The translations under genes and the position numbers were made by a program. This document shows, piece by piece, positions 19,261-33,969 of a stretch of 38,868 bases of DNA (positions are counted from its first letter, which is position 1; each line of letters begins with the position of its first letter). Origin of the DNA: Aerophototrophica crusticola (lineage in GTDB: Bacteria; Pseudomonadota; Alphaproteobacteria; Azospirillales; Azospirillaceae); NCBI GenBank assembly GCA_001939945.1, contig MOEB01000035.1, positions 1-38,868 on the forward strand. Direction: 5' to 3'. The notes beneath the pieces are model-generated. The model was given only the letters and a program-made list of their open reading frames with translations. It had not been told where the DNA came from and made no database searches.

Positions 19261-19278
19261 ACTTTCGAATTCGAAAGT
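19261..19278. repeat. 18-base perfect palindrome ACTTTCGAATTCGAAAGT
   Basis: A fully self-complementary, AT-richer site with no loop lies seven bases from the parS-like site at 19285-19310. It is the form of a dimeric regulator operator. No second copy was seen in the window. Confidence 0.5.
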
Positions 19279-19284
19279 GGGCGT

Positions 19285-19310
19285 CGGGCTATCCGACGTC
19301 GGATAGCCCG
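19285..19310. promoter_or_regulatory. parS-like palindrome 1 (TATCCGAC/GTCGGATA core)
   Basis: The 16-base core at 19290-19305 is a perfect palindrome and the symmetry extends to 26 bases (arms CGGGCTATCCGAC and GTCGGATAGCCCG). It begins ten bases past the infA stop codon. It is one of six copies of ATCCGACGTCGGAT around parAB. It may also act as a hairpin at the end of infA. Confidence 0.6.
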
Positions 19311-19320
19311 TCCGATCGGG

Positions 19321-19611
19321 TCAGCGGCGGCGGGGCGGGGGGCCGCCGGGGCGGCGCACGCCACCTGGGGGCGGCATGGAGCCCGGGCGCTCGTCCTTGT
19401 GGCGGAAGGTGATGCGGCCCTTGGACAGGTCGTAGGGCGTCATCTCCACCGTCACCCGGTCACCGGCCAGGGTGCGGATACGGCTCTTGCGCATGCGGCC
19501 GGCCGTGTAGGCCATGATCTCGTGCCCGTTCTCCAGGGTCACGCGGAACCGGCCGTCGGGCAGCGCCTCGGAGACGGTGCCCTCGAACTCGATGAACTCT
19601 TCCTTGGCCAT
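19321..19611 (-). CDS. infA: Translation initiation factor IF-1 with C-terminal extension
   Basis: IF-1 binds the 30S A site during initiation. The 96-residue protein begins [20 protein letters not shown] after AGGAG, and contains the OB-fold blocks [24 protein letters not shown] and [18 protein letters not shown], which match IF-1 throughout. The usual family length is about 72; here a Pro/Gly/Arg-rich tail of about 24 residues (ending GGPPPRRR) is added. The gene is 85 bases downstream of the RhlE-like helicase gene on the same strand, so they may be co-transcribed. I cannot tell whether this is the only infA of the organism or a second copy. Confidence 0.95.
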
Positions 19612-19696
19612 GATCGGCTCCTGTCTCTCAGATAGGCTGGCGCCCCCGGCGGCCTGAACCTGGCCGCCGGGGGATGGTCGTGATGGGTGGATAACG

Positions 19697-21331
19697 TCAG
19701 GAACCGCGCCGGGCGCCCTTCAGGAACGCCGGCGCCCAGTCGCCTTCGGGGGAAACAGTGTTGGCGGCCGGCCGGGGGGCCGGCTTGGCCCCCTGGGCCG
19801 GGCGGCCACGCTGGTTGTCGTTGCGGCCGCCCTCCGCCGGGCGGGCATGGTCGGGACGGTGGTGCGCCTGCGGGCGGTTGCCGCCCTCCGCCCGGGGCTG
19901 GTCGGGGCGGCGGGGACGGTCCTGCCGGTTGGCGTCGGGCCGCGCCCCCTGGGCCGGGCGGCCGCCCTCGGCACGGGAGGAGCCCGGTTGGGAGGCGTTT
20001 GCCGGCTTGGGCCCGCCGGGGCGCTGCTGCCGGTTCCCCTCCCCTGCCCCGCCGTTGCGGTTGCCCGCCTGCTGGGGACGGCCGGGGGACTGGCGGCCCT
20101 GCTGCTGGCCGTTGCCGCCGCGCCCGCCCCGGCTGCCCTGGGGCTGCGCCGGACGGTTGGCCGGGGTGGCCGCCGCGATGGCCGCGGCGGACGGGGTGGC
20201 AATGGGGGCGGGGGCCGGGGCCACGGCGATGCTGCGGCGGATGGCCTTCTCGATGTCCCGCAGCAGGGGGCGGTCCTCCCCCGTCACCAGGGACACGGCG
20301 ACGCCGTCCTTGCCCGCCCGGCCGGTGCGGCCGATGCGGTGGACATAGGCCTCCGGCACCTCCGGCAGGTCGAAGTTGAAGACGTGGCTGATGCCGTCCA
20401 CGTCGATGCCGCGGGCGGCGATGTCGGTGGCCACCAGGGCGCGGGAGGCGCCGGACTTGAAGGCGGCCAGCGCCCGTTCCCGCGCCGGCTGGGACTTGTT
20501 GGCGTGGAACGGGTCCGCCTGGATGCCCGCCGCGGTCAGGAAGGCGGCCAGCTTGTTGGCGCCCCGCTTGGTGCGGGTGAAGATGATGGCCCGGGTCACC
20601 GCCGGGTCGCTGAGCAGCGCGCCCAGCACGCCGTTCTTCACGGCATTGTCCACCATCACCACGCTCTGCGCGATGCGGTCCACGGTGGAGGAAGGCGGCG
20701 CCACCTCCACCCGCACATGGTCACGCAGCAGGCTGTGGGCCAGCTTGGTCACCGCGTCCGGCATGGTGGCGGAGAAGAACAGGGTGTGGCGCTTGGCCGG
20801 CAGCACGGCCACCACGCGCTTCACGTCATGGATGAAGCCCATGTCCAGCATGCGGTCCGCCTCGTCCAGGACGAAGGCCTCCACCGCGTTCAGCTTCACC
20901 TCCCCCTGGCCCATCAGGTCCAGCAGGCGGCCGGGGGTGGCGACCAGGATGTCCGGGCCGGCGTTCATCGCCCGGACCTGGGGCCCGAGCGACACGCCGC
21001 CATGGACCACCGTGTGGGTCAGCCCCAGCACGGCGCCGAACCGGCCGAACGTCTCCCCCACCTGGATGGCCAGCTCACGGGTCGGGGTCAGCACCAGGAC
21101 GCGGGGGGCCTTCGGCGCGACGCGCTTCGGTTCCGCGGCGAGGCGCTGGAGCAGGGGCAGGGCGAAGGCGATGGTCTTGCCCGTACCGGTCTGGGCGAGG
21201 CCCAGCACGTCACGGCCGGCAAGGCCCGGGGGGATGGCCGCCACCTGGATGGGGGTCGGCTTGGTGAAGCCATCGGACTCCAGCACGCCCAACAGGCGGG
21301 CATTGAGGCCGAGGGAAGGGAAATCAGACAT
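19697..21331 (-). CDS. rhlE: DEAD-box RNA helicase, RhlE-like
   Basis: This 544-residue ATP-dependent RNA helicase has all core motifs: Q motif GFTKPTPIQ (21-29), motif I AQTGTGKT (46-53), PTRELA (83-88), motif II DEAD (156-159), motif III SAT (187-189) and motif [12 protein letters not shown] (around 320-330). The helicase core ends near 385; the rest is a low-complexity Gln/Gly/Arg/Pro/Asn tail that likely binds RNA, as in RhlE and RNA-chaperone helicases. Such proteins act in ribosome assembly, RNA decay and cold adaptation. ATG 21331 starts [10 protein letters not shown]. It lies upstream of infA, fitting a joint translation-related transcript. Confidence 0.93.
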
Positions 21332-21786
21332 CTATCATTCCTGGCGGCAGCGGCCGCGAAGGTCGGGCCCGGCAGGCACGCCGGCCCCGCGCGGCCGGAC
21401 ACCAGCCGCAGGTGGCAAGGGCCGGGCACCGGAAGGGCGCTCGGCGACGAATGGTATCCCGACGGCCTGGGGAAGGCAGGGTGCGGGCCCGGCAGGCGGG
21501 CGCATCCCGATTGGCGGTTGGGGAGCTGGGCTCCTGCGCGCCGTTCCATTGGGACAGGCGGGCCGCCCGGTGGGCGGTGCCTGTCGACCCCTACTGGAAC
21601 GGGGGGACCCGCAGCGGGGTCGGGCTCCAGGAGCAAGATCGATGGGCGCAAGATGGGGCTTGGCGCGGCCTGGGGCAAGGGACCATTGCGGGGGGCTGTC
21701 CTGCCCCGGAAGCAGGCGCCTGCCCCCTGCCGGGTCGGCCCGCGGGTTCTGAACCGACAGGGCGGTTCGGTTCCGGCCGCCCCGCC
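21332..21786. other. Gap of 455 bases between rhlE and repA
   Basis: I see no convincing gene; frames open through the gap have no ribosome site or recognisable motif. It must hold the rhlE-infA promoter. A hairpin GAACCG/CGGTTC (21751-21768) lies just past the repA stop and is listed separately. Confidence 0.5.
21751..21768 (-). terminator. Possible repA terminator hairpin
   Basis: Six-base arms GAACCG and CGGTTC enclose a six-base loop, 18 bases past the repA stop codon on the minus strand. There is no run of T after it, so the call is weak. Confidence 0.3.
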
Positions 21787-22848
21787 TCACTCAGCCTGGG
21801 CCTGGTCGGCGGCCACCGCCTCATCCGCCTCCAGGAAGCTGTCGGGGGCATATTCCCGCCAGCGGTCCAGGCGCCAGAACACCACCATGTTGCGGGCCAG
21901 CGGCAGGCGCTTGGGCGTGCCGTCGGGGCCGGGCATGGTGTCGATGATCTTGAAGGCGTACTCGGGCAGCGGCTTCTTCTTGTTGGCAATCTTCTTGAGC
22001 TGGACCTTGAAGTTCCGGTCGTCCATGTCGGAGCCGACCCGCACCCGCAGCTTCTGCAGGCCGATCTTGAAGCCCGGCTGGTTGCCCACATGGGCGCGGG
22101 CCAGTTCGTACAGCCGCTTCTCCATGACCGGCAGGTCGAAATACACGGGGTCATAGGTCAGGAAGCGGCGGTCCTTCAGGACGGCCCGGTAGAGCCAGTC
22201 GCAGAGCTTGACCCGCACATGCTTCAGCCGGCGCTCGCCGGTGGCGGGATTGCGGCTGTACTCGGCCTTCGCCGCCTCCAGCCAGCTGAACCACTCGTCG
22301 GAGCCCTGGCCGCCCGTCTCGATGTTGGTCTTGACCTGGGTACCCTGGAGCCGCTCCAGCGCGCCGCTGATCCGCTCATAGCTGGTGTTGCTGGCGAAGA
22401 TGCGGGTGACGCGGCAGAAATCGTGCCAGGTGAACTGCACCCAGCGGCTCGCCCGCTCGCCGGCGTTGATCCGGTCCACCAGCAGGGAGATGGCGTAGAT
22501 CAGGATTTCCTTGTCGTAGATGGTGGCGATGCCGGCGTCGGTGCCCTTCACCTCGATCATGACGTTGCCGTCATGGTAGCGGATGGGCTCGGTCCGCTTC
22601 TCCTTCGTCAGGGCGAAGAAGTTGTAGACCATGACGGAGCGCTCGTTCTTGACGCTTCCGCGCAGGGGGCTGTCCAGGATGCCGGGGAGCGGGATCTGGT
22701 CCTCGTCGTCGTCCGGCACGTCGCCAACCTGGACGACCTCTAGCTCCTGGTCCGGGGGCAGCGCGGACGCGGTGGGCTTGCGCCGGCCCCGGGGGCGGCT
22801 GCCGCCGGATGCTGACGTTCCCTCGAATTCACCGCCGCGCTGAGCCAT
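21787..22848 (-). CDS. repA: Replication initiator protein RepA (RPA family)
   Basis: This 353-residue protein should bind the adjacent iterons and open the origin of this replicon. After a disordered N-terminus of about 70 residues (acidic VGDVPDDDEDQ) the conserved core begins at IPLPGILDSPLRGSVKNERS and VMVYNFFALTKEKRTEP, characteristic of the RepA/RPA initiator family of alphaproteobacterial plasmids and chromids. It then has IYDKEILIYAISLLVDRINAG and a winged-helix-like part (FTWHDFCRVT, YERISGALERL), followed by a second half with basic patches (KVQLKKIANKKKPLPEY). The start is ATG 22848 with a strong GGAGGGG; a longer frame to 22911 was rejected. An iteron-like sequence (22810-22827) lies inside the first codons, suggesting autoregulation. 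It is oriented away from the iteron cluster. Confidence 0.9.
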   Translation of the reverse strand: MAQRGGEFEGTSASGGSRPRGRRKPTASALPPDQELEVVQVGDVPDDDEDQIPLPGILDSPLRGSVKNERSVMVYNFFALTKEKRTEPIRYHDGNVMIEVKGTDAGIATIYDKEILIYAISLLVDRINAGERASRWVQFTWHDFCRVTRIFASNTSYERISGALERLQGTQVKTNIETGGQGSDEWFSWLEAAKAEYSRNPATGERRLKHVRVKLCDWLYRAVLKDRRFLTYDPVYFDLPVMEKRLYELARAHVGNQPGFKIGLQKLRVRVGSDMDDRNFKVQLKKIANKKKPLPEYAFKIIDTMPGPDGTPKRLPLARNMVVFWRLDRWREYAPDSFLEADEAVAADQAQAE

Positions 22849-23846
22849 GGCTTCCCCTCCAGGTCCATGGGCGGATGGTTGGTCGGGGCGGGCGGGAGAG
22901 TCCAGAAGCAAACAGCATGTTGCTGACGATCCCTTGAATCTTTACCAGCCCTGGTGTCCCGGAAGCCTTGTGGCGGCTGGGGTCGGCCCCTGCAAGGCTC
23001 GCCCCCGGGAAGCTGCCGGCAGGGCCTTCTTCAAGGGATCGTCAGCATCGAAGCCCCTGTGTTGCCCACTCACGGGAGAATCGGCCCCACGCGTGCGGGG
23101 CCAAGGGTAACCAAGGGATTCAGGAATCCTGTTAAACCAGGTGTTACAAGGTTATAGGCGCCAGGATGCGTTTCGGATCAAGCACTTGCACCGGAGTCGT
23201 GCTGACGAACCCTTGGGGGCATGCTGACGAACCCGCGGGCGCGATGCTGGCGTTCCCGCGAGGGCCGGAAACCCTGCTGACGAAACCTTGAGCCGGCCCG
23301 CGGGTTGGAATGCCCCCTGCCCGGCCGCTTGCTGGCGTTCCCTTGAGCGGGTGCTGACAAAACCTTGAAAACGGGCTGTCGGGAGACCCCGGCGTTAGGA
23401 GGTTGCTGACGTTTCCGCGAGTCAAGGCGGGTACCGGGCGGGGCGGGACTCAAGGGTTCGTCAGCAAGCGGGCCGGCGTGGGCAAAGGCCCGCGAATCCT
23501 GGCCTGCCGTGGGCGCCCTGGGGGCATGTGTGCGCCTTCGGGGGAGGTTTCGCCAGCATTCCCGGCGCATCCTGGGGAGGGGGACTCAAGGGAACGTCAG
23601 CAGCATCGAGCGTCGGATGTTCAAGGGATCGTCAGCATCGCGGGAGCCGTGACGGGCTAGCGAATCGATAGGAGCGCGGTCGTGTCCGGGTGCCGGGGGT
23701 CCCCGTGGCGGCGCGGGCATAGGACCATGAACCCGCAGGTAAGTTGATGGTCCGCGCGGGACGGATCGGGGGGCCGTGCGGGTGCAGACAGGTGAATGGC
23801 GAGGGACGCGATGGTCGCTTCGCGCGATTGCTGACGTTCCTTCGGG
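22810..23846. other. Iteron-containing replication origin
   Basis: About 15 copies of an 18-base iteron, consensus TGCTGACGWWCCCTTGAA, are visible. Forward copies start at 22810, 22921, 23200, 23222, 23245, 23275, 23330, 23352, 23404 and 23829. Inverted copies (TTCAAGGGWWCGTCAGCA) start at 23030, 23449, 23541 (weak), 23585 and 23620. The closest forward copies are 22-23 bases apart, two helix turns, as in iteron origins. The set lies between repA and parB, in the 1147-base gap 22849-23995, where no gene is seen. A less GC-rich part around 23115-23160 (GTTAAACCAGGTGTTACAAG) could be the unwinding element. No clear DnaA box was found. Ten GANTC sites fall within 22898-23666. Confidence 0.88.
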
Positions 23847-23938
23847 GGGCGTAGAGCGTGTGGGGAAGTGTGACGGGCAGCGTGCAGCCTGAGTGGGGGC
23901 CCGCTGCCGCGCCATAGGCACGGCGGCTTTCCCGAGGG

Positions 23939-23957
23939 GCCCGGGTCAAGCCCGGGC
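23939..23957 (-). terminator. Possible parAB terminator
   Basis: The hairpin GCCCGGG (23939-23945) / CCCGGGC (23951-23957) with a five-base loop lies 39 bases past the parB stop on the minus strand. No T-run follows, so a Rho-independent terminator is only possible. Confidence 0.35.
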
Positions 23958-23995
23958 TGACATCTGGTGATTGGCAGGATTGGGGAGATCGGGCG

Positions 23996-24838
23996 TCAGC
24001 CCAGCACGTCGTCGATGGTGCGGCGCAGGGCCAGGAGTTGCTCCCGCTGGCGGGCGGTCAGGGCGTTCTTCTTGCCCTTCAGCGCGTCCAGGGACTTGGC
24101 GATACGGACGATACCGCGCAACGCGAGGCCCGCCGGGTCCTCCGCGGGTTCGCGCCTTGCCGGGGCGGGGGCGGCGGACTTCTCGGCCCGGATGCCGCGG
24201 ACGGTGAGCAGGCCTTCCTGCGCCCGCTGCCAGAGGGAGAGCTGGCGGGCCGGGTCGTCGATGGTTGCCAGCTCGATCAGCAGGGAGCGGGATACCTGCT
24301 TATCGGACGTCGGATACTCCGCCTGGATGGTGGGGTGCAGGGTCAGCAGGCGCAGCAGGGCGCTCACCTGCCCCTGGCTCTTGCCAACGGCGCCGCCCAG
24401 CTCCTCCTGGGTGTAGCCGTGCTTGTCCAGCAGCTTCTGCAAGGCCGCCGCCTCTTCCAGGGCGTTCAGGTCCTGGCGTTGCAGGTTCTCGATCAGGCCG
24501 ATCTCATCCACGTCGCCCGTGGTGACGATGGCGAAGATGGTGGGCCAGCCCAGCAGCCGGGCTGCCCGCCAGCGCCGCTCGCCGGAGACGATCTCATAGG
24601 CCCCGCCCTCCCCCTCCCGCACCAGGATGGGGTGGATCAGGCGGACGCGGGCCATGCTGGCCGCCAGCTCCTGCAAGGCCGCCTCGTCGAAGTGGCGGCG
24701 GGGCTGGTCCGCCCGGGGCTGGAGCTTCTCCACGTCCAGCTCCAGCAGGCGGGGGAAGTCGCCCGAGGTGCCGAACAGCGGGTCGCGGGCCACCCGCTCG
24801 ATGGCGGTGCCGAAGGTCTCGCGGCGCTTCAGCTTCAT
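23996..24838 (-). CDS. parB: Chromosome/plasmid partition protein ParB
   Basis: This 280-residue CTP-dependent DNA clamp loads at parS and spreads to form the partition complex. The N-terminal domain has LLELDVEKLQPRADQPRRHF, the P-loop-like CTPase box GERRWRAARLLG (86-97) and the arginine-rich ENLQRQDLN (117-125). The helix-turn-helix region follows at about 142-165 (GYTQEELGGAVGKSQGQVS). The C-terminal third has a linker rich in Ala/Pro and a dimerisation end (LTARQREQLLALRRTIDDVLG). It overlaps parA by four bases (ATGA), so the two are translationally coupled. The parS-like site at 24301-24316 lies in codons about 175-180. The sequence differs from chromosomal ParB in places, fitting a secondary replicon. 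Confidence 0.93.
   Translation of the reverse strand: MKLKRRETFGTAIERVARDPLFGTSGDFPRLLELDVEKLQPRADQPRRHFDEAALQELAASMARVRLIHPILVREGEGGAYEIVSGERRWRAARLLGWPTIFAIVTTGDVDEIGLIENLQRQDLNALEEAAALQKLLDKHGYTQEELGGAVGKSQGQVSALLRLLTLHPTIQAEYPTSDKQVSRSLLIELATIDDPARQLSLWQRAQEGLLTVRGIRAEKSAAPAPARREPAEDPAGLALRGIVRIAKSLDALKGKKNALTARQREQLLALRRTIDDVLG
24301..24316. promoter_or_regulatory. parS-like palindrome 2 (inside parB)
   Basis: TATCGGACGTCGGATA differs from the consensus TATCCGACGTCGGATA at one base (fifth position). It lies in the parB coding sequence. An intragenic site of this kind is more typical of a partition site than of a promoter operator. Confidence 0.5.
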
Positions 24839-25602
24839 TGGGCCAGCTCCTTCGCGACGTGCCGGTAGACGTTCACGGGGTGGTCGATGGGCAGCACCTT
24901 CAACGCCACCTCACCGTTGTAGGAGGCCTGGTCGAAGCCGGTGGCCCGGTGCACCGGCGGGAAGACGCGGGTCATCTTGCCCAGCCGCTCCTGCAACTCC
25001 TCCAGCACCTGCCGGTTCACCTTCAGCTTTGGGTCGTGCAGGGTGGGCAGGATGCCGACCACGGTCAGGCCGGGGTTGAGGCGGCGCTGCAGCTTGGTCA
25101 CCGTCTCCAGCAGCAGGGGGATGCCCAGCATGTCCAGGAAGGCGGTCTTCACGGGGATCAGCACCTTCTGCGCCGCCACCAGCCCGTTGGCCGTCATGGG
25201 GCCCAGGTTGGGCGGCGTGTCGATCAGGATGAAGTCGTAGGCGCCGGCCACCGGCGCCAGCGCCTCCTTCAGCACCATGTCGCCGCCGGCCTCGTTCCGG
25301 ATGCGCATCTCCCCCTCCGCCAGGGAGATGCCCGACGGCAGCAGGTCGAACTTGGCGGACTCCACCGGCACCACGGCCTTGGTGATGTCCTGCCTGTGGA
25401 AGAGCACATGGTAGAGGGTGGACTGGCGCTGCTCGAACTCGAAGGCGTCGAGGCCCACGGCGGCGGTGGCGCTGGCCTGGGGGTCGGCGTCCACCACCAG
25501 CACGCGCTTGCCCAGCTCGGCCAGGGCCGTGGCCAGGTTGACGGCGGTCGTCGTCTTGCCGACGCCGCCCTTCTGGTTCGCGATGGCGATGGTGACGCCC
25601 AT
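24835..25602 (-). CDS. parA: Partition ATPase ParA
   Basis: This 255-residue Walker-type ATPase drives segregation of ParB-bound DNA over the nucleoid. The deviant Walker A KGGVGKTTTA (11-20) has the signature lysine K11, followed by VVDADPQASAT (switch I region) and IDTPPNLGPMTANGLVAA (Walker B). There is no N-terminal DNA-binding extension, so it is the short type Ib/chromosomal-like form, which does not repress its own promoter by itself. It begins ATG 25602 and is transcribed towards parB and the origin. The promoter lies in 25603-25876, which carries two parS-like palindromes. Confidence 0.93.
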   Translation of the reverse strand: MGVTIAIANQKGGVGKTTTAVNLATALAELGKRVLVVDADPQASATAAVGLDAFEFEQRQSTLYHVLFHRQDITKAVVPVESAKFDLLPSGISLAEGEMRIRNEAGGDMVLKEALAPVAGAYDFILIDTPPNLGPMTANGLVAAQKVLIPVKTAFLDMLGIPLLLETVTKLQRRLNPGLTVVGILPTLHDPKLKVNRQVLEELQERLGKMTRVFPPVHRATGFDQASYNGEVALKVLPIDHPVNVYRHVAKELAQ

Positions 25603-25723
25603 GCGTCCCTCCCTGCAGGATGGTGTGCCGCGGGGTCCTGCCCCGAAGGCCGGGGCGGAGACTACGGGGGCCGGTCACCTCCCGTCAACGGAACCGGGGG
25701 CGCCCATGCCGCGGCAGGCGCCA

Positions 25724-25739
25724 TATCCGACGTCGGATG
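25724..25739. promoter_or_regulatory. parS-like palindrome 3
   Basis: TATCCGACGTCGGATG carries the perfect 14-base core ATCCGACGTCGGAT at 25725-25738, in the parA/pdxJ divergent gap. The next copy starts 34 bases further on. Confidence 0.6.
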
Positions 25740-25757
25740 GCGCGGAAGGCACACTGC

Positions 25758-25773
25758 CATCCGACGTCGGATG
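25758..25773. promoter_or_regulatory. parS-like palindrome 4
   Basis: CATCCGACGTCGGATG is a perfect 16-base palindrome. With copy 3 it forms a pair 34 bases apart (about three helix turns) between parA and pdxJ. Confidence 0.6.
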
Positions 25774-25876
25774 ATGAAGATGTCATGGTGCCAAGCCCGG
25801 CCTTGCGGGCGGCGGCGCTTTGACGCAAGGTCCCCGCGCCCCGTCGCCCTAGTTCCCGGGGTCATGGAGGAAGGTC

Positions 25877-26611
25877 ATGGTCCGGCTCAGCGTCAACCTC
25901 AACAAGATCGCCCTGCTGCGCAACTCCCGGCACACCGGCGTGCCCGACGTGGCCGGTTTCGGCAAGCTGGCGCTGGAGGCGGGCGTGCAGGGGCTGACCG
26001 TGCATCCCCGGCCCGACGCCCGCCATATCCGGACCTCCGACGTGCATGCCCTGGCCGAGCTGATGGCACCGGTGCGCCCGGGCGTGGAGTACAACATGGA
26101 GGGCCGCCCCACGCGTGAGTTCCTGGCGCTGGTGGAGGAGGTGCGGCCGGAGCAGTGCACCCTGGTGCCGGACGCGCCGGACGCCTTCACGTCGGACCGC
26201 GGTTGGGACCTGGCGCGGGAGGGCGCGCATGTGCGCGAGGTGCTGGCCCGGCTGAAGGGCCAGGGCATCCGCGCCATCCTGTTCATGGACCCGGACGCGG
26301 CGCAGATGGACGGCGCGGCGGAGGTGGGGGCCGACGGGGTGGAGCTGTACACCGGCACCTATGCCGAGGCGTTCCGCAAGGGCGATCACGGGAAGGCGCT
26401 TGCGGACGTGCTGGCGGCGGGGGAGAGGGCGCATGCCCTGGGCCTAGTCGTCAATGCCGGCCATGACCTGAACACCCTGAACCTGCCGCCCATCGTGAAG
26501 CCCTGGCTGCGGGAAGTCTCCATCGGCCATGAGCTGACGGCGGACGCCCTGGTCTGGGGGTGGGCGGAGACGCTGCGCCGCTACCGCGCGGCCTGCGGGC
26601 AGGCGGCCTGA
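25877..26611 (+). CDS. pdxJ: Pyridoxine 5'-phosphate synthase
   Basis: PdxJ condenses 1-deoxy-D-xylulose 5-phosphate with 3-amino-2-oxopropyl phosphate to give pyridoxine 5'-phosphate, the last ring-forming step of the DXP-dependent vitamin B6 pathway in the cytoplasm. The 244-residue protein, normal length, begins VRLSVNLNKIALLRNSR and has GLTVHPRPDARHI, the catalytic YNMEGRP (glutamate in the conserved 'N(M/I)EG' block), LVPDAPDAFTSD and the C-terminal GHDLNTLNLP and SIGHELTADALVWGW. GGAGGAAGG lies five bases before ATG 25877. It is divergent from parA and alone, with no acpS or recO as found with pdxJ in gammaproteobacteria. Confidence 0.95.
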   Translation: MVRLSVNLNKIALLRNSRHTGVPDVAGFGKLALEAGVQGLTVHPRPDARHIRTSDVHALAELMAPVRPGVEYNMEGRPTREFLALVEEVRPEQCTLVPDAPDAFTSDRGWDLAREGAHVREVLARLKGQGIRAILFMDPDAAQMDGAAEVGADGVELYTGTYAEAFRKGDHGKALADVLAAGERAHALGLVVNAGHDLNTLNLPPIVKPWLREVSIGHELTADALVWGWAETLRRYRAACGQAA

Positions 26612-26709
26612 CCTTCGCGGGCGGTGCGGCGGGGTTGCGTGGGTCGGGCTTCCCTTGCCCGGTTTGTCCTTGTATCCATCTGGGGCCCACGCCGTAGCCA
26701 AGGCCCGCC

Positions 26710-27285: not shown

Positions 27286-27289
27286 GCCT

Positions 27290-27916
27290 TCAGGGCGCCG
27301 GCTTGGCCATCAGGGCCTTCAGTTCCGCCAGGAACCGCTCGGCAGCCACCTCGGGCGGCCAGGGTTCCCAGGGCGTGCCGCCATACAGGGACACGAGCGG
27401 GTCCGTGGCCAGGGGCTCCAGCGGGATCTTCAGCACGCGGCGCACCTCCTCCCGGGTCCAGCCGGCCACGTGGGTGGCCTCGCTGGCGGCGGCGACGCGG
27501 TCGGCCTGCTTGTGCTCCGCCTTCTCCTTCTTGGTCCAGCCCGGCACGCCGTAGCGCAGGAAGATGGCGGCCTGGAGCCGCGCCACGAGGGCGTGGAACT
27601 CCGTGCCGAGGAAGGGCTTGATGACGGAGATGGGGTCGAAGCCCAGCAGCCCCTCATCCGCGTCGTGCAGCAGCTCCCGCAGCTCGTGGGCCGGGGTCAG
27701 CGGCACCGGCGCCCAGGCCCGGCGCAGGGCCAGCACGGTCAGGGAGTGCTGGGCCACCGACAGGGGGCGCGGCCAGCTGGAATGGCCACCCCAGCGGTAG
27801 GTCCGGGCAAGGCCAAGGGCCAGGTCGGCATCGTCCCAGTCGAACGGGGTCGGGTTCAGCAAGTCCAGACGGCGGCGGGAGGGAAGCCGTACCCAGGCCC
27901 TCGGGGTCTTCTCCAT
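27290..27916 (-). CDS. HD-domain phosphohydrolase (YfbR-like)
   Basis: This 208-residue protein begins MEKTPRAWVRLPSRRRLDLL. The metal site is seen in VAQHSL (His), then HELRELLHDADEGLLGFDPISVIKP with the HD pair. This order resembles YfbR-type 5'-nucleotidases and related HD-domain hydrolases for nucleoside or nucleotide substrates. Substrate is unknown. The frame stays open upstream but the ATG at 27916 is the first with a purine-rich site. The stop is 4 bases past that of gmhA on the opposite strand. Confidence 0.8.
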   Translation of the reverse strand: MEKTPRAWVRLPSRRRLDLLNPTPFDWDDADLALGLARTYRWGGHSSWPRPLSVAQHSLTVLALRRAWAPVPLTPAHELRELLHDADEGLLGFDPISVIKPFLGTEFHALVARLQAAIFLRYGVPGWTKKEKAEHKQADRVAAASEATHVAGWTREEVRRVLKIPLEPLATDPLVSLYGGTPWEPWPPEVAAERFLAELKALMAKPAP

Positions 27917-28098
27917 GCCGCTCCGCCTCTGCCGCCTGTCACCGACAGGGGCGTAGCAAATCCTGTGGTCCCGGGCAACGCGGGGCCTGCGCCAGATCAA
28001 TGAGGGAGCCCGAAAGGGGTAGTAGACAAACATTTAGGTGCACCGCACCATCCAGGTGGTCGCTGACGCCGTCCGACCCCGTTCGAAGAGGACACGCC

Positions 28099-28395
28099 AT
28101 GCCCCGCAAGACCAGCACGCCGGACGTGACAACCACGCCCGTGACCGCGAAGAAGCCCGCCAAGGCAGCAGCCGCGAAGCCGGCCGAGGCCGCCCCGAAA
28201 AAGCCCCGCCGCAAGGCCCCCCCCTTCGCCGCGGCCGAGCCGCCCGTGACCCTGGCCGCCGCCCTGCCAGAGGCGGACATCGCCGCCGAGGCTTATCTGC
28301 TCTGGCTTGCCGACGGCCAGCCCCATGGCAAGGATGTGGAGCATTGGGTCAGGGCTGAGGAGATCGTGCGCGGGCGGCAACCGGTCGCGGCCTGA
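28099..28395 (+). CDS. DUF2934-domain protein with Ala/Lys/Pro-rich N-terminus
   Basis: This 98-residue protein begins MPRKTSTPDVTTTPVTAKKPAK, a long basic and Pro/Ala-rich lead of about 55 residues. The C-terminal part AEAYLLWLADGQPHGKDVEHWVRAEEIV matches the DUF2934 family ('A-x-LW-x-x-G-x-x-x-G-x-x-x-x-HW-x-x-A-E'). GAAGAGG lies nine bases before ATG 28099. Function unknown. It converges with the zinc-finger mini-protein gene, and the gap holds a parS-like palindrome and a hairpin. Confidence 0.8.
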   Translation: MPRKTSTPDVTTTPVTAKKPAKAAAAKPAEAAPKKPRRKAPPFAAAEPPVTLAAALPEADIAAEAYLLWLADGQPHGKDVEHWVRAEEIVRGRQPVAA

Positions 28396-28424
28396 CGCCC
28401 CACCGTCGGCTGGCGGCAGGTAGC

Positions 28425-28440
28425 TATCCGACGTCGGATA
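28425..28440. promoter_or_regulatory. parS-like palindrome 5
   Basis: TATCCGACGTCGGATA is a perfect 16-base palindrome in a convergent gap (between two gene ends). That position speaks against a promoter operator and for a partition-type site. Confidence 0.65.
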
Positions 28441-28441
28441 A

Positions 28442-28473
28442 GCGGGCGGCGGTCCGCCGGGACCACCGCCCGC
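28442..28473. terminator. Hairpin between converging genes
   Basis: Arms GCGGGCGG (28442-28449) and CCGCCCGC (28466-28473), with an inner GGT/ACC pairing, form a strong GC stem between the DUF2934 and zinc-finger genes. No T-run; probably a bidirectional stop. Confidence 0.45.
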
Positions 28474-28507
28474 CCCTCCCTACGCGGAGCCGCGTCGCAC
28501 CTGGCGG

Positions 28508-28726
28508 TCAACCGCCGCCGATACCCTCGGTGACCACGCCGGTACCGTCACAGTTGGGGCAGGGAGCCCCATTGACCTGGCCGCTGCCGGCGCAGGCCGG
28601 GCAGAGGTCGTCGCCGGTGCCGGTGGTTCCCGCCGGGGCTTCGCTGCCCGGCTTCATCGGCCGCGACCCGCCCCCTGCCGGGGTCGACGCCTGGTCCTGG
28701 CCCTTGCCGCCCTCACTCCTGTCCAT
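28508..28726 (-). CDS. Mini-protein with DnaJ-type zinc finger
   Basis: This 72-residue protein has two CxxC pairs in a DnaJ central-domain pattern: CPACAGSGQVNG then CPNCDGTGVV, the 'CxxCxGxG' repeat. Each pair supplies half of a zinc site. The first half (MDRSEGGKGQDQASTPAGGG) is disordered. A strong GGAGG precedes ATG 28726 (AAGGAGGACGAA). Similar small zinc-finger proteins are common in proteobacteria; function unknown. It is divergent from flbT. Confidence 0.8.
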   Translation of the reverse strand: MDRSEGGKGQDQASTPAGGGSRPMKPGSEAPAGTTGTGDDLCPACAGSGQVNGAPCPNCDGTGVVTEGIGGG

Positions 28727-28896
28727 TTCGTCCTCCTTGGTTCTCGGAAGACAACAGGCGAGCGGGCCGGACGTGGCGGTGGCTCGTGCCGGATCGAACT
28801 TCCCGCGTGCAAAGGATGGGGCGCCTGTCTAGGATTGGGCCCTTGCCCCGGCCGGTCGGGGCCGCTGGTCTGCACCCCTCGGAACAGGACGACGAC

Positions 28897-29340
28897 ATGG
28901 CCTTGAAGATCAGGCTCAGGGCGGAAGAGCACCTGGTGATCAACGGCGCGCTGGTGAAGGCGACGGAGCCGACGACGCTGCTCCTGATGAATCATGCCAA
29001 GTTCATGCATGACAAGCAGATCATGCGGCCGGAGCAGGCGAACACCGCGGCCAAACGGATCTATTTCGCCGTCCAGAACGCGTACTTGGCCACGCCAGAG
29101 GAGCGCCCGGCCATGCTGACGATCCTGCGGCAGCTGGTGGCGGACTTCCGGGACGCGACCCTCAGCCAGAACATGCAGCAGAAGTTGGAGGAGCTGGAGG
29201 GCTGCGTGGGGCAGGACAACTACTACAAGGCCTTGCAGATCGCCCGGGAGGTGATCGCCTATGAGGACCTGGTTCTGGGCGTCGGCACCTTCTACCAGGA
29301 CAGCAAGGACGAGACGGACTCCGTCACCGAGGAGCCGTAA
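28897..29340 (+). CDS. flbT: Flagellin post-transcriptional regulator FlbT
   Basis: FlbT binds flagellin mRNA and, in Caulobacter, limits its translation until the hook is built. This 147-residue protein begins MALKIRLRAEEHLVINGALVK and shows the family blocks TEPTTLLLMNHAKFMHDKQIM and RPEQANTAAKRIYFAVQNAYL, followed by the C-terminal helix (YYKALQIAREVIAYEDLV). Length is the family's. An upstream frame could extend it to 28786 but the ATG at 28897 is the conserved start. flaF, its usual partner in many alphaproteobacteria, is not adjacent. It is the first gene of the flagellar region. Confidence 0.92.
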   Translation: MALKIRLRAEEHLVINGALVKATEPTTLLLMNHAKFMHDKQIMRPEQANTAAKRIYFAVQNAYLATPEERPAMLTILRQLVADFRDATLSQNMQQKLEELEGCVGQDNYYKALQIAREVIAYEDLVLGVGTFYQDSKDETDSVTEEP

Positions 29341-29364
29341 GGCAACCCGCCGCGCTCCGGGAAC

Positions 29365-29895
29365 TCAGACGTCGATCTGGCGAAGATAGCCCGAGGCGGC
29401 CGACAGGCCAGTCGGGCCACCGCCGGCTTGCACGGACGCAGGCACCGCGGCGGCGGCAGGCTGGGGAAGGGGCGCCGCAGTGCTGGGAACGGGGCTGTCC
29501 ACCCGCCGGGCAGCTTGGCTCTCGCCCGTCGCCGAGGTGCCGCTGGTACCCAGGCCGGTGCCCCCGGTGGCCTGCTCCTGCCCGTCGCCGGGCTGCGTGG
29601 CGCGCCGCCGCTCCTCCGCCTCTTCGGCGCGGGCGATCTTCGCCGCCTTCTCATAGGCTTCGAGCTGGCCCTTGGTGGGGATCGAGCGTTCCAGCTTGCC
29701 GGTGTTCAGGTCGCGGAACTCGATCACGACCACGTTGGCATCGTTATCGAAGCGCAGCTTCGGGCTGTAATAGACGCCAGAGCGCTCGGGGGCGGGGGTG
29801 GTTGCCTGGAAGCCAGAGTCCGTCCGGCGAGCGTCCACGGCGGGGGCGGGCGCTTCGATGGTTTGGCGGACGGGTGCTACGGCTCCGATAAGCAT
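29365..29895 (-). CDS. FlaG-like flagellar protein with disordered tail
   Basis: This 176-residue protein has a central block RFDNDANVVVIEFRDLNTGKLERSIPTKGQLEAYEKAAK (about residues 48-86, split here into two blocks) that resembles the FlaG domain ('vVki-D..TgevIRqIP'). FlaG proteins affect filament length. The C-terminal half is Ala/Gly/Pro/Ser-rich and disordered. The start is ATG 29895 after CAGGAG. It is on the strand opposite to flbT and their ends face each other 24 bases apart. The FlaG call rests on this one block. Confidence 0.65.
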   Translation of the reverse strand: MLIGAVAPVRQTIEAPAPAVDARRTDSGFQATTPAPERSGVYYSPKLRFDNDANVVVIEFRDLNTGKLERSIPTKGQLEAYEKAAKIARAEEAEERRRATQPGDGQEQATGGTGLGTSGTSATGESQAARRVDSPVPSTAAPLPQPAAAAVPASVQAGGGPTGLSAASGYLRQIDV

Positions 29896-30021
29896 GGCAA
29901 GACCACTCCTGATTACAAAGTATCAGCGCCCTGTTCGTCTGTCCAGTCCTGTTACCCGCAATTTTAGCTATCATGAATGCTCAGGTATGCATAGGGTGCA
30001 AATGGCACCCCATCCGAAGGG

Positions 30022-30591
30022 TTAGATCGATCTGGCGAATCGGATAGGTTGCGGCGGGCCCCCTGGCGGCTCCGTGATGGTGGCAGCCCGGCGGTAAGCT
30101 TGGCTCGCGGCCTCTGCCGTGACGGCGGGTCGCCCCCCGTCCTGGCCGTCACGTGCCGCCTGTTGCTGCTCCAGCAGGTCCGCCTGCGCCTGGGCGCGCA
30201 GGGCCTCGGCCCGGGCGGCGACGGCCCTGTCCTGGGGGGAGGGCTCCGCCGGTGCCAAGGCGGCCCGCTTGACGATGTCCATCTTGCGGATGGTGGCGTC
30301 CGGCTCCCGCTCCGGGGCCGTGTCGATGGTGACCTCGCCACCGGTCGCGTAGCGCTGGCCGTCGGGACCCTTCGTGTACTCGTAAAAGGGGCCGGCGGTG
30401 AGGGAGCCGCCCACGGCCTTGTGCGCCTGCTCGTGGGTCCGCACCTCCTGGTCCCGCCGCTTCAGGGCCTTGACCGCCTGCTGTTCCTCTGTCGTCAGCT
30501 CCCCTGTACCGGACGCGCCGCGCCTGCCAGGCCCGGCGGTGGGGTGGGCGGGGGAGGGGAGGGGCGGGGACAGGCTGCCGATGGGGGCCAT
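30022..30591 (-). CDS. Predicted zinc metalloprotease (SprA-related/CJM1_0395 family)
   Basis: This 189-residue protein has the conserved core ELTTEEQQAVKALKRRDQEV then RTHEQAHKAVGGSLTAGPFY (about 55-75), where HEQAH fits the HExxH zinc motif, followed by YEYTKGPDGQRYATGGEV. This is the pattern of the SprA-related / CJM1_0395 putative metalloprotease family. The C-terminal part is Ala/Gln/Arg-rich and coiled. No signal peptide is seen. It lies between the FlaG-like gene and flgE on the same strand. A role in flagella is suggested only by position. Confidence 0.75.
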   Translation of the reverse strand: MAPIGSLSPPLPSPAHPTAGPGRRGASGTGELTTEEQQAVKALKRRDQEVRTHEQAHKAVGGSLTAGPFYEYTKGPDGQRYATGGEVTIDTAPEREPDATIRKMDIVKRAALAPAEPSPQDRAVAARAEALRAQAQADLLEQQQAARDGQDGGRPAVTAEAASQAYRRAATITEPPGGPPQPIRFARSI

Positions 30592-30673
30592 GGTCCGGGG
30601 CGGGGCCGGGGTGGTTCGGCCCCCAATCTATGCGTGTGACGCCGCCGCGTCCAGGCCGGCCCACGAACGGCAA

Positions 30674-30699
30674 GGGCCGCCCGACAAAGCGGGCGGCCC
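30674..30699 (-). terminator. flgE terminator hairpin
   Basis: Perfect ten-base arms GGGCCGCCCG (30674-30683) and CGGGCGGCCC (30690-30699) with a six-base loop lie 32 bases past the flgE stop. On the minus strand the hairpin is followed by TTGCCGTT, a weak T-rich end. Confidence 0.65.
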
Positions 30700-30730
30700 C
30701 TCCGGGAGAGAGAGCAAGTGTGTGGAGAGC

Positions 30731-33148
30731 TTACCGGGCGATGTTCAGCACCTCCTGCAGCATCTGGTCGGCGGTGCTGACCACCTTGGTGTTGGCGCTG
30801 TAGGCGCGCTGGGTGATGACCAGCTTGGTGAACTCGTCGGCGATGTCCACGTTGGACCCCTCGATGCTGCTCACCACCAGGTTGCCCGACCCGTTCTCGC
30901 CGGCGGCGGTGGCCCGCTGGGAACCGCTTTCCGTCGTCGGCACCCAGGCATTGCCGTCCACCTTCTGCAGGCCGTCGACGTTGTTCACCTGGATGACGGG
31001 GATCTGCGCCAGCACGCGGGACCGGCCGTTGTCGTAGTTGGCCACCACCTCGCCCGACGACAGGACCGACAGGTCGCGGAAGGTGCCGCGGGTGAAGCCG
31101 TCCTGGGTCAGGGTGAAGACCTCGATGTCCTGGCCCTTGAACTGGGTCAGCCCGTTCACGCTGCTGCCGAACTGGCCGAGGTTCAGGCGGATCTCCTGCT
31201 CGCCGTTGCCGTAATCGACCTTGAAGGTGATGTAGGCCGGGTCGCCGTCCCGCTGCGTCGGCGACACCTGGGCGTTGCCGGCGCCCCGGTTGCCGGCGGA
31301 CATGCTCTGCAGGACGCCGCCGTCGCCGAAGTTGACGGACAGGTGGGCGGGGGTGAAGCCGCCGGTGGTGCCGAAGCCGTTCTGCTCCGTCGGGAAACCG
31401 GAGGTGTCGTCGCGCGTCGGTCCCAGGCCGCTGTTGCCCGTCGTCGGGTTGGTGAAGGTGCGCCGGGTCAGCTCCAGCCCCGGGCCGCGCACCGTCGCCG
31501 TGTAGGGGGAGGCCGGGTTGCTGTTCACCAGGGCCGCCAGCCGGGTGGCGATGGTCTCCATGGACTGCTCTGTGCCGTCGGTCGTGTAGCTCACGCCCTG
31601 GCCGTCGCCGCCGAAGGGGATGGTGAAGACGTCGCCCTTGTCGCCGACCTGGCCGTTCAGGGGCACGAAGACCTGCTGGCGGACGCCGGCCACCCCGTTC
31701 GCCAGGCCGAAGCCCGTGGCTTCGGCAACCGCCGCGATGGGCGTGGCCGACGTGACGTTCGCCGAAGATGCGACGGTGAAAGCGGCGCCGGTGTTCGGCC
31801 CGGTCACGGTGATCACGGCCGGGTCGTTGTCCGTCGCCGCGGCCGGGTCGGTCACGGTCAGCTGGAAGCCGGCGAAGGCGGGGTCGTTGGCGAAGTACTC
31901 GTTGGCTTGGTTCGCCAGCTTCGTGGCGATGTCCTCACGGCGCAGGGTGTCGGTGGGCAGGACGGTGTAGCTGAAGGCCTGGCCGTTGAGGGTCATGCTG
32001 TAGGTGGCGCCGGCCACCGGGTCGGCATTGATCGTGAAGGTGGACTGCTGTGCCACCGCACCCACCGGCGTGGTGTTCGCGGTCAGGGTGGAGCCGGTGG
32101 TCGCCGTCGTGCTGGACGTCAGGGTGAAGGCGGAACCGTCCTGCGGGCCGCTGATGATCAGCCGCATGGTGCTGTTCGTGCCCGGGGCGGCATCGTTGAT
32201 CTGGAAGCTGTACTCGTTGAAGGACCCGCTGGCGTTGATCTGGTTGACCAGGTTGCCCAGCACGGACTCGGTCGTGTCGAAGCTCTGCGCCGTGTAGGTG
32301 AAGCTCCGGCCGTTCAGCGTGATGCTGTAGGGCTTCCCGTCCTCGATCTCGTTCGGGGCGGCGCCGCCCGGCGTCAGGGTCACCATGCTCACCTGGCGCT
32401 GCGGGGTCGTGTTCTGCCGCAGCTCCAGCGGCGTCCCGAAGGACTGGGCCTGGCCCGGCAACTCACCGATGGTGGGCTGCAGGATGCTGTTCGGGGCGTC
32501 GATGCTGAGGCGCCAGTTGTCGGTGCCCTGCTTGCGCCAGGACAGGTTGACCGAGCGGGTCTCGCCGTTGCGGTCGATGATCTTCACCTCCTGCGCCGGC
32601 AACGGCTGGTCGGCCTTGGGCGTCAGGGGCAGGTTGGCCTGCAGGTTGATGCTGCTGGTCGGGGTGGGGTTGTCGATCAGCTGCTGTACCCGGATGGGCG
32701 AGGGGGTGCCGCGCTCCACCTGGTTGCCGGTGCCCAGGCCCCAGCCGTTCAGGTAATAGCCGGCGCTGTTGCGCAGGTAGCCGTTCTTGTCCAGGCTGAA
32801 GTCGCCGGCCCGGGTGAAATAGGCTTGGCTGCTGAAGGTCACGTTGCCCGACACCTCCTCGCCGCGGCTGACCTGGAAGAAGCCGTTGCCGGAGATGGCC
32901 ATGTTGGTGGCCGTCTGGGTCTGCTGCACGCTGCCCTGGACCCCGTTGGTGTAGTCGGGCCGGGCGCGCACGCCGCCGGGGCTGTGGCCGGAGGAATTGG
33001 ACTGGGTGACCAGGTTCTGGAAGCTGGTATCCACCCGCTTGTAGCCGATGGTCTGGGAATTGGCGATGTTGTCCGAGATGTGGCCCAGGGACCGGCTGAA
33101 GGCCGTCAGGCCGCCGACCGCCGTGGTCATCGCTCCGAAAACGCTCAT
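30731..33148 (-). CDS. flgE: Flagellar hook protein FlgE, enlarged
   Basis: FlgE polymerises into the flexible hook between basal body and filament. The ends are conserved: N-terminal MSVFGAMTTAVGGLTAFSRS and DNIANSQTIGYKR (D0/rod domain), C-terminal NVDIADEFTKLVITQRAYS and QMLQEVLNIAR. At 805 residues it is about twice the E. coli length. The extra sequence lies in the outer part: three related beta-rich modules at about 269-348, 369-463 and 492-565, each with 'YS-(I/M)-TLNG-x-x-F-x-YT ... DT-x ... LxxxIN ... GxxxGxxFT'. The start is ATG 33148 after GGGAGAGAG. A sigma-54 promoter lies at 33198-33214, 49 bases upstream of the ATG. flgD and fliK, usual neighbours, are absent. Confidence 0.93.
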   Translation of the reverse strand: MSVFGAMTTAVGGLTAFSRSLGHISDNIANSQTIGYKRVDTSFQNLVTQSNSSGHSPGGVRARPDYTNGVQGSVQQTQTATNMAISGNGFFQVSRGEEVSGNVTFSSQAYFTRAGDFSLDKNGYLRNSAGYYLNGWGLGTGNQVERGTPSPIRVQQLIDNPTPTSSINLQANLPLTPKADQPLPAQEVKIIDRNGETRSVNLSWRKQGTDNWRLSIDAPNSILQPTIGELPGQAQSFGTPLELRQNTTPQRQVSMVTLTPGGAAPNEIEDGKPYSITLNGRSFTYTAQSFDTTESVLGNLVNQINASGSFNEYSFQINDAAPGTNSTMRLIISGPQDGSAFTLTSSTTATTGSTLTANTTPVGAVAQQSTFTINADPVAGATYSMTLNGQAFSYTVLPTDTLRREDIATKLANQANEYFANDPAFAGFQLTVTDPAAATDNDPAVITVTGPNTGAAFTVASSANVTSATPIAAVAEATGFGLANGVAGVRQQVFVPLNGQVGDKGDVFTIPFGGDGQGVSYTTDGTEQSMETIATRLAALVNSNPASPYTATVRGPGLELTRRTFTNPTTGNSGLGPTRDDTSGFPTEQNGFGTTGGFTPAHLSVNFGDGGVLQSMSAGNRGAGNAQVSPTQRDGDPAYITFKVDYGNGEQEIRLNLGQFGSSVNGLTQFKGQDIEVFTLTQDGFTRGTFRDLSVLSSGEVVANYDNGRSRVLAQIPVIQVNNVDGLQKVDGNAWVPTTESGSQRATAAGENGSGNLVVSSIEGSNVDIADEFTKLVITQRAYSANTKVVSTADQMLQEVLNIAR

Positions 33149-33197
33149 GGTCTCTCTCCCGTACTGGGGTGGTGGCTTGCTCTCCGCCCCTCGTGAC

Positions 33198-33214
33198 AGC
33201 AAGGGGTGTGCCAA
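33198..33214 (-). promoter_or_regulatory. Sigma-54 promoter of flgE
   Basis: On the minus strand TTGGCACACCCCTTGCT fits TTGGCAC-N5-TTGCW with exact GG/GC spacing. It begins 66 bases before the flgE ATG. This is the class II/III flagellar promoter type in alphaproteobacteria. Confidence 0.82.
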
Positions 33215-33328
33215 GCGCGGGAGATGGCGGGTTTCCTGGCGTTCCGGCCTCGGGGCGGGGGGCGGACCTTGCCGCCCCCGGCGGTGCCGGTCAGTTTTTT
33301 CCCAGGGGGGGCGGCAGGGGATTCCCCC

Positions 33329-33502
33329 TCAGCGCCCCATGACGGCGATCCAGCCCCAGACCACCAGGGCGATGAAGCCCAGCAGCGCGGCGACGATGCC
33401 GAGCGCCCGGACGAACTGCGCCAGCTCCCCCTGCTTCCAGGCGCTGCGGGCCAGCAGCAGCAGGTAGGCCAGGACCGCGCCAACGATCAGCGTGCCCTTC
33501 AT
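33329..33502 (-). CDS. Small two-helix membrane protein
   Basis: This 57-residue protein begins MKGTLIVGAVLAYLLLLAR and has two hydrophobic helices, about 3-18 and 34-53 (ending VWGWIAVMGR), joined by a polar loop (SAWKQGELAQFVRALG). Both strands of evidence are direct: a closed frame of the right hydrophobicity and GC-rich third bases. The ribosome site is weak. It is between the flgE promoter region and a 124-residue unknown gene, on the same strand as flgE. No family recognised. Confidence 0.6.
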   Translation of the reverse strand: MKGTLIVGAVLAYLLLLARSAWKQGELAQFVRALGIVAALLGFIALVVWGWIAVMGR

Positions 33503-33548
33503 GGACGGCGGTCCCGGGACAAAGGGGGGAGGGGCGGGGGAGGTCGGC

Positions 33549-33923
33549 TCAGGGGACCGCGCGGCGCGCGGCGGGGCGGACGGTGCCCTTGGAGGCCTTC
33601 ATCTCACCCTCCTTCATATAGATGACCAGGTTCAGGTCGCCGGCGATGACCTCGACGAACTTGGACCCGCTGCTGGGCAGACGGATGCGCCGCTCGATGC
33701 AATAGTTCACCAGGGCCGCCGCCAGTTCGGCGGCGTTGCGCTCGATGGTCGTGCGGGCGCCGTAATCGTCCTCCACCACCAGCCGGGCGGAGACCGGGTC
33801 CTCCGCCAGCTCCAGGCCGACGATCTGGCCGGAGGGCAGGGGCTGGCGCAGCTTCCGCAGCAGGTCGATGATGGCGGTGATGGACTCCCGCTCCGTGAAG
33901 CTGAGTGTCCGCATTTCCTTCAT
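33549..33923 (-). CDS. Hypothetical protein in flagellar region
   Basis: This 124-residue protein begins MKEMRTLSFTERESITAIIDLLRKLRQPLPSGQIVGLELAEDP split as N-terminal helix and first strand. It continues with VVEDDYGARTTIERNAAELAAALVNYCIERRIRLP and VEVIAGDLNLVIYMKEGEM. Its alternating hydrophobic pattern suggests a small alpha/beta cytoplasmic protein. No family was recognised. It may be linked to flagellar assembly through its place next to flgE; it is divergent from the HODM-like gene. Confidence 0.7.
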   Translation of the reverse strand: MKEMRTLSFTERESITAIIDLLRKLRQPLPSGQIVGLELAEDPVSARLVVEDDYGARTTIERNAAELAAALVNYCIERRIRLPSSGSKFVEVIAGDLNLVIYMKEGEMKASKGTVRPAARRAVP

Positions 33924-33953
33924 GACCCGACCCCTGGTGCGCCGCACGGCGGG

Positions 33954-33969
33954 AATCCGACGTCGGATG
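33954..33969. promoter_or_regulatory. parS-like palindrome 6
   Basis: AATCCGACGTCGGATG contains the perfect 14-base core (33955-33968). It is the copy furthest from parAB, 8.4 kb from the parA start, in a divergent gap. Confidence 0.55.

Follow-up and report, generated by a model that had tools for sequence, protein, structure and literature searches.

Palindromic sites around parAB of an RPA-type replicon in Aerophototrophica crusticola: a predicted parS centromere and a series of ParB-associated palindromes in one bacterial family

Contig MOEB01000035.1 of Aerophototrophica crusticola (assembly GCA_001939945.1), analysed over its whole length of 38,868 bases (the window), carries a parAB partition locus surrounded by six copies of a palindrome. 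The parB gene (23996..24838, minus strand) encodes a protein of 280 amino acids with ParB_N and HTH_ParB domains, the recognition helix GKSQGQVSALLRLL, and glutamine at the position of Caulobacter R173; its GERRWRA and ENLQR segments align with the Noc structures and are predicted CTP-binding motifs (GERRxRA and ENxQR in ParB). The parA gene (24835..25602, minus strand) encodes 255 amino acids with an AAA_31 domain. A ParA ATPase gene that adjoins the gene of a ParB with both domains, and multiple palindromic copies near the two genes, mark the locus as a predicted ParABS system. Also on the minus strand is the gene for a replication initiator of the RPA family (PF10134; 21787..22848, with an uncertain start codon and an open frame to 22911), and between it and parB lie iteron-like 17-bp repeats on both strands (TGCTGACGAACCCTTGA, 22921..23848), the probable replication origin. 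With the core genes infA (encoding IF-1; 19321-19611) and pdxJ (25877-26611) beside an RPA-type plasmid initiator, the contig is probably part of a chromid; a DEAD-box helicase gene, a SIS-domain gene and flagellar genes on it point the same way.

An earlier note on this DNA had described six copies of the palindrome around parAB, and five exact copies of ATCCGACGTCGGAT (at 19291, 25725, 25759, 28426 and 33955) and one with a single mismatch (24302) were recovered, the positions in that note being the starts of 16-mers, one base earlier. Copy 1 (19285..19310; it and the other intergenic copies are given without strand) is a perfect 26-bp palindrome, CGGGCTATCCGACGTCGGATAGCCCG, in a tandem gap, its centre 23 nucleotides past the stop codon of infA. 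Copy 2 (24301..24316, minus strand) lies within parB as the codons TAT CCG ACG TCC GAT A (YPTSD), and its lone mismatch, TCC for TCG (serine), is synonymous. Copies 3 and 4 (25724..25739 and 25758..25773) are spaced 34 bp apart in the 274-nucleotide divergent gap between parA and pdxJ; copy 5 (28425..28440) occupies a convergent gap between a plus-strand gene (28099-28395) and a minus-strand open reading frame of 72 amino acids (28508-28726); and copy 6 (33954..33969) lies in a 203-nucleotide divergent gap, upstream of 33549-33923. Genes were predicted with a caller written for this analysis, which missed at least one small open reading frame, that at 28508-28726, and thereby called the gap of copy 5 tandem; with this frame included, the placement of one copy in parB and another in a convergent gap agrees with the earlier note. 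At up to three mismatches the window contains seven matches to ATCCGACGTCGGAT, against a mean of 1.25 and a maximum of 4 in 100 shuffles, none of which reaches seven; the seventh match (three mismatches, at 23605) is absent from the earlier list.

All exact copies of ATCCGACGTCGGAT in the whole genome (6,061,112 bases in 328 contigs) are the five in the window, where 0.014 per genome would be expected at the window's base composition, and eight places have one mismatch, the copy in parB being one of these. A whole-genome search had been proposed as a check, and it finds the motif not spread over the genome, with every exact copy on one contig of 328. The earlier note had named the usual chromosomal parS as an alternative target, and near the genome's chromosome-type ParB lie sites that differ from the window palindrome, GTTYCACGTGRAAC, in four copies that are all on contig C296. 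Both outcomes support the centromere claim of the earlier note: the six palindromes are very probably parS, and the ParB of the window would read them as the centromere of its replicon, a chromid or megaplasmid of RPA type. The claim is further supported by the clustering of the site with this ParB type in three genomes and the match between residue 173 of the protein and base 1 of the site.

When the own genome and those of 58 relatives were searched for ParB, the closest among the matches listed were proteins that are 79% identical (contig C42 of Oleisolibacter albus NAU-10, Azospirillaceae, G007) and 74% identical (contig C2 of G022). In this comparison of related genomes, which the earlier note had suggested, the same palindrome clusters at parAB of both: O. 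albus has five exact copies within 2.8 kb around parB, with a pair spaced 31 bp that is comparable to copies 3 and 4, and G022 has two exact and two one-mismatch copies within 3.1 kb at parAB on a contig of 1.18 Mb, which contains two more one-mismatch matches far from the cluster. The gene beyond parA in each of these genomes is not pdxJ, as judged by eye from the translations. A pattern scan of 84,980 species found 15 loci, of which one is the Oleisolibacter locus and all others are at most 51% identical, save for a 33-residue fragment at 52%; the scan also missed G022 and a clade of ParBs at 57-62% identity, so that it is no proof of absence.

The association of palindromes with ParB extends beyond this type. 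In addition to the window, 100 stretches of 4.5-20 kb, all from the same bacterial family and hand-picked among the matches listed, were compared through 101 ParB open reading frames, L156 having no ParB hit at the cut-off and L092 having two. A perfect 14-mer palindrome is repeated exactly, in two copies or more, in 59 of 101 stretches, compared with 4 of 505 order-3 shuffles. Such pairs are present within 4.5 kb of parB in 47 of 100 stretches versus 2 of 100 in the remainder of the same stretches, and in one of 17 other stretches. The 58 ParBs labelled from these loci (58 of 59, the locus on contig C318 being excluded) have 20 palindrome types, among them TTGCGACGTCGCAA, GTGCAACGTTGCAC, GTGTGACGTCACAC, TTCTGACGTCAGAA and GTGGGACGTCCCAC, and require 19 changes on the ParB tree, which is the minimum, whereas 200 label shuffles require 39 to 46; the tree is of a quick kind, with 32 open branches and several long branches. 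L095 has two repeated palindromes, of which the one common to its ParB clade was chosen; the other would break the rule for residue 173 given below. Labelled ParBs of the same genome never have a common palindrome (0 of 66 pairs, versus 146 of 1587 cross-genome pairs), a result that is weak alone because any one genome usually has a single ParB from each clade.

To look for confinement to single contigs, a degenerate pattern for GACGTC types was searched in G022, G031 and G005, three genomes whose assemblies have four or five contigs each. Perfect palindromes of the window type are found only on C2 of G022 (two copies) and those of the TTCTGAC type only on its C3 (two). G031 has the TTGCGAC type only on C3 (four) and the TTCTGAC type only on C4 (three), with a further palindrome, TTTCGACGTCGAAA, on C1; G005 has the TTGCGAC type only on C2 (two) and the GTGTGAC type only on C3 (three). 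The family offers what is predicted to be a natural series of orthogonal ParB-parS pairs.

The spelling of the palindrome is partly readable from ParB. With the half-site ATCCGAC numbered from 1 to 7, Q173 is reported to prefer A at position 1 and R201 to prefer C at position 6 in Noc-like variants, whereas ParB has R173 and G201 (PMC7383237). Residue 173 and base 1 correspond in 68 of 68 labelled ParBs, which include six labels taken from the in-gene site described below and four single-copy labels, added by hand: glutamine goes with A (10 of 10), arginine with G (38 of 38), and lysine, threonine, glutamate or proline with T (20 of 20). The first of these pairings was taken from PMC7383237 and the second from known parS of R173 ParBs, and the class of other residues with T was defined after the table had been seen. 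Counted by type (22 types, 64 ParBs), residue and base agree in 22 of 22, a score that none of 100,000 shuffles attains; the independent contrasts, three on well-supported branches and four to five on all, are in the expected direction without exception and are too few for significance. Arginine at 201 occurs in a single labelled ParB (contig C306), and its palindrome, GTTTGGCGCGCCAAAC, is the only one with C at position 6. The window ParB, with Q173, and the window site, with A at position 1, are in line with the published contact.

A copy of the site inside parB is not peculiar to the window. A 16-mer with seven or eight of its eight pairs palindromic occupies the same alignment codon, shortly past the recognition helix, in 27 of 101 parB genes, and the remaining 74 have at most five palindromic pairs there. 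Among 96,336 windows in parB frames, 99 reach seven pairs, 27 of them at this codon and four at the next commonest place. Six different sequences are found at the fixed codon, with the peptides YPTSD, CATLH, VLTSE, CVTSH, YATSH and LSNSK. The six sequences, the changing peptide and the window count together argue that neither shared protein sequence nor chance accounts for the place. Bacillus subtilis spo0J likewise has parS within coding DNA. With a copy at fixed codons, a parB gene may be able to take its centromere with it when it moves.

In the mechanism proposed for the window, a ParB dimer would bind the 16-bp site TATCCGACGTCGGATA with one arm per helix-turn-helix, load as a CTP clamp, spread, and be moved by ParA; through the pair of sites ahead of parA, ParB probably represses its own operon as well. 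The sites that were assigned to the cell's other ParB systems have different sequences, so that the replicons would not compete. Binding, CTP loading, segregation and autoregulation are all predictions from sequence. The mechanism would be of the same kind as that of the Bsr systems discussed below, the likeness being one of design; the ParB tree covers the family of the window genome.

Four of the six copies lie upstream of a gene (the two in the parA/pdxJ gap, that at 33955 in a divergent gap and that at 19291 in a tandem gap), as might be the case if the palindromes were operators of a transcription regulator over parAB, pdxJ and other genes. This is very improbable: one copy falls within parB, another between convergent genes, base 1 tracks ParB residue 173 across 22 types, and the sites of the two relatives stay with parAB beside another neighbouring gene. 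For this last reason the reading of the sites as a pdxJ operator was rejected. The site pair ahead of parA, here and in O. albus, would also be compatible with sites that serve ParB autorepression or incompatibility only, the true centromere being elsewhere on the replicon; with some copies as much as 9 kb off and one within a gene, and with other clades often having sites about 1 kb upstream of parB, inside it or just after it (an arrangement that was seen and not counted), this explanation too is improbable. Coincidence, or the base composition of a G+C-rich genome, might produce exact copies of the window palindrome such as those that stand alone in six members of the genus that have no cluster (G003-G006, G008 and G010) and, once, in G018 of another genus. 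This explanation has a negligible probability and is ruled out for the repeats by the 0 of 100 shuffles that reach the count and the confinement to one contig of 328, to which may be added the expectation of 0.014 exact copies per genome. The seven isolated copies that were inspected occupy unrelated places, mostly coding DNA as judged by eye. At L054, L056-L060 and L049, several isolated copies read as DPTSD-like codons.

The isolated copies nevertheless count against a centromere read by the window ParB and the wider series of cognate pairs, as do the following observations. The next ParB clade (57-62% identity, five loci) has no copy of the window palindrome within three mismatches in four loci and only one three-mismatch match in the fifth; nothing in the 20-kb stretches of O. 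albus and G022 corresponds to the far copies of the window (19291, 28426 and 33955); and in G005, a genome without the window ParB type, C2 and C3 each have a single exact window palindrome, remote from parB. Two of the three genomes of the window type have an imperfect in-gene copy: that of the window bears its synonymous mismatch and that of G022 another. Two parB genes of the GTGTGAC type have a third kind of mismatch, and in view of all three the in-gene copy may be a weaker or decaying site. ParBs to which no label was given number 33 of 101, of which about eight have a single nearby copy of the palindrome of their clade and the rest have none assignable. In the own genome, whose contigs cannot be assigned to replicons, four of nine copies of TTGCGACGTCGCAA are off the contig of their ParB (on C1, on C78 and twice on C224), as is one of three copies of TTTGGCGCGCCAAA (on C319).

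A common palindrome was sought for the 57-62% clade itself (L102, L103, L104, L105 and L106), and none was recognisable. One candidate, GGAACATATGTTCC, is present in five of five loci at some 5.4-5.9 kb from the start of parB; it was not accepted as the site of the clade because each locus has a single copy and its centre and distance are unlike those of any other clade, a dismissal that may be wrong. Three of the five contigs (in G005, G006 and G010) bear a second ParB, of the GTGTGAC type, with GTGTGACGTCACAC sites.

The predicted parS series resembles several known systems. The Bsr systems on secondary replicons of Burkholderiales have 16-bp palindromes with a central CG and replicon-specific binding, and their narrow cognate specificity is thought to prevent incompatibility (PMC5450999). 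The present sites share with them the 16-bp palindrome, the central CG, a core of two C, two G, one A and one T (here GACGTC) and the use of one sequence per replicon, and differ in the bacterial class, the sequences and the RPA-type initiator; parS at fixed parB codons, as seen here, was not found in the accessible part of the Bsr description (PMC5450999). Protein family, site length and symmetry are those of chromosomal ParB-parS and Noc-NBS, with Q173-A1 and R201-C6 as in Noc and R173-G1 as in ParB (PMC7383237). Unlike in chromosomal parS, the half-site is ATCCGAC rather than GTTTCAC, with differences at positions 1 and 3-5, and the genes adjoin a plasmid-type initiator; with this half-site, and with the chromosome-type ParB having its own sites on C296, the canonical parS TGTTTCACGTGAAACA or a close variant was rejected as an identification. 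The repABC replicons of Alphaproteobacteria also have 16-bp palindromic parS near the partition genes, some of them in coding DNA or kilobases off (PMC9040568), whereas the window palindrome departs from their consensus GTTNNNNGCNNNNAAC in having CG rather than GC at its centre, the initiator is of the RPA family (PF10134) rather than RepC, and the partition genes are parAB, so that this identification was rejected as well. Azospirillum is named as rich in extra replicons in PMC13342612, whose accessible text gives no parS for it.

The claim of a new type in the earlier note holds for the sequence: neither the window palindrome nor TTTCGAATTCGAAA, the dispersed palindrome discussed below, was found spelled out in one open-access library of papers, where the layouts of parS inside parB and of dispersed sites of a plasmid ParB were not recognised either. 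As far as searches of that library show, the novelty lies in the sequences, the extent of the series within a single bacterial family, the fixed in-gene copy and the dispersed sites. A bacterium with several replicons has to distribute each of them without cross-talk, and the series offers more than 20 natural ParB-site pairs in which the sites differ in few bases, the proteins can be aligned and one residue-base rule can be read, making the evolution and upkeep of orthogonal centromere specificity directly testable. The pairs are also candidate orthogonal tags for labelling DNA loci.

The own genome has a further palindrome, TTTCGAATTCGAAA, with 86 exact copies on many contigs and 102 copies with at most one mismatch, compared with none in 58 relatives and none or one in 81 other genomes of the family (five with one; the two sets overlap). 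One exact copy is contained in ACTTTCGAATTCGAAAGT in the window (19261..19278, no strand given), 28 bp from parS copy 1. TTTCGAATTCGAAA is apparently the parS of a ParB encoded on contig C318, a plasmid-type protein accompanied by a RepA_C initiator; the gene of this ParB has CTTTCGAATTCGAAAG at the fixed codon, and a second copy of the 14-base core is upstream of its parA. The best match to this protein in the 81 family genomes is 49% identical. The palindrome was first kept out of the tree labels because of its 102 copies at up to one mismatch, and was readmitted as candidate parS of the C318 ParB when it was seen at the same codon position of that parB. Contig C318 encodes a second ParB some 7 kb away from this one (L092, 12921-14156), with no palindrome assigned to it.

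The flanks of 16 dispersed copies are unrelated past an 18-bp core, so the palindrome does not look like a mobile repeat. Of the 86 exact copies, 54 were viewed, these being the first by contig number plus copies on loci that had been retrieved for another purpose: convergent gaps contain 22, tandem gaps 17, divergent gaps 5 and genes 10. Convergent gaps thus hold 22 of 44 intergenic copies, versus a baseline of 15 of 107 in seven stretches (p ~1e-8), an excess that fits an architectural site rather than an operator. Evenness was tested on one contig, C1, where the spacing of the 12 listed sites is more regular than in 98.8% of random placements. Noc is not known to have a ParA partner of its own, and has an N-terminal membrane-targeting helix. 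The dispersed copies match the palindrome at the putative parS places of the C318 ParB; were this ParB to read them, it would resemble Noc in that respect, and it differs from Noc in the parA-like gene directly upstream of its own. Genome-scattered sites of ParB-family proteins are known from half-parS binding in Pseudomonas aeruginosa (PMC10419367) and from Noc (PMC4331003), whereas the C318 sites are full palindromes of at least 14 bases, 86 of them exact, and the C318 ParB is of plasmid type, with ParA and RepA_C. It may be suggested, tentatively and at less than even odds, that the C318 ParB reads ACTTTCGAATTCGAAAGT, binding the dispersed copies, and that a plasmid partition protein recently became, in one of the species examined, a genome-wide nucleoid-organising or nucleoid-occlusion factor; if so, Alphaproteobacteria would have a parallel to Noc that arose independently.

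At three places (L185, 5428-5465; L183, 5483-5622; and the window, 19263-19304) a palindrome of another ParB type is found at a distance of 24-126 bp from the dispersed palindrome, which may reflect only a shared preference for permissive gaps.

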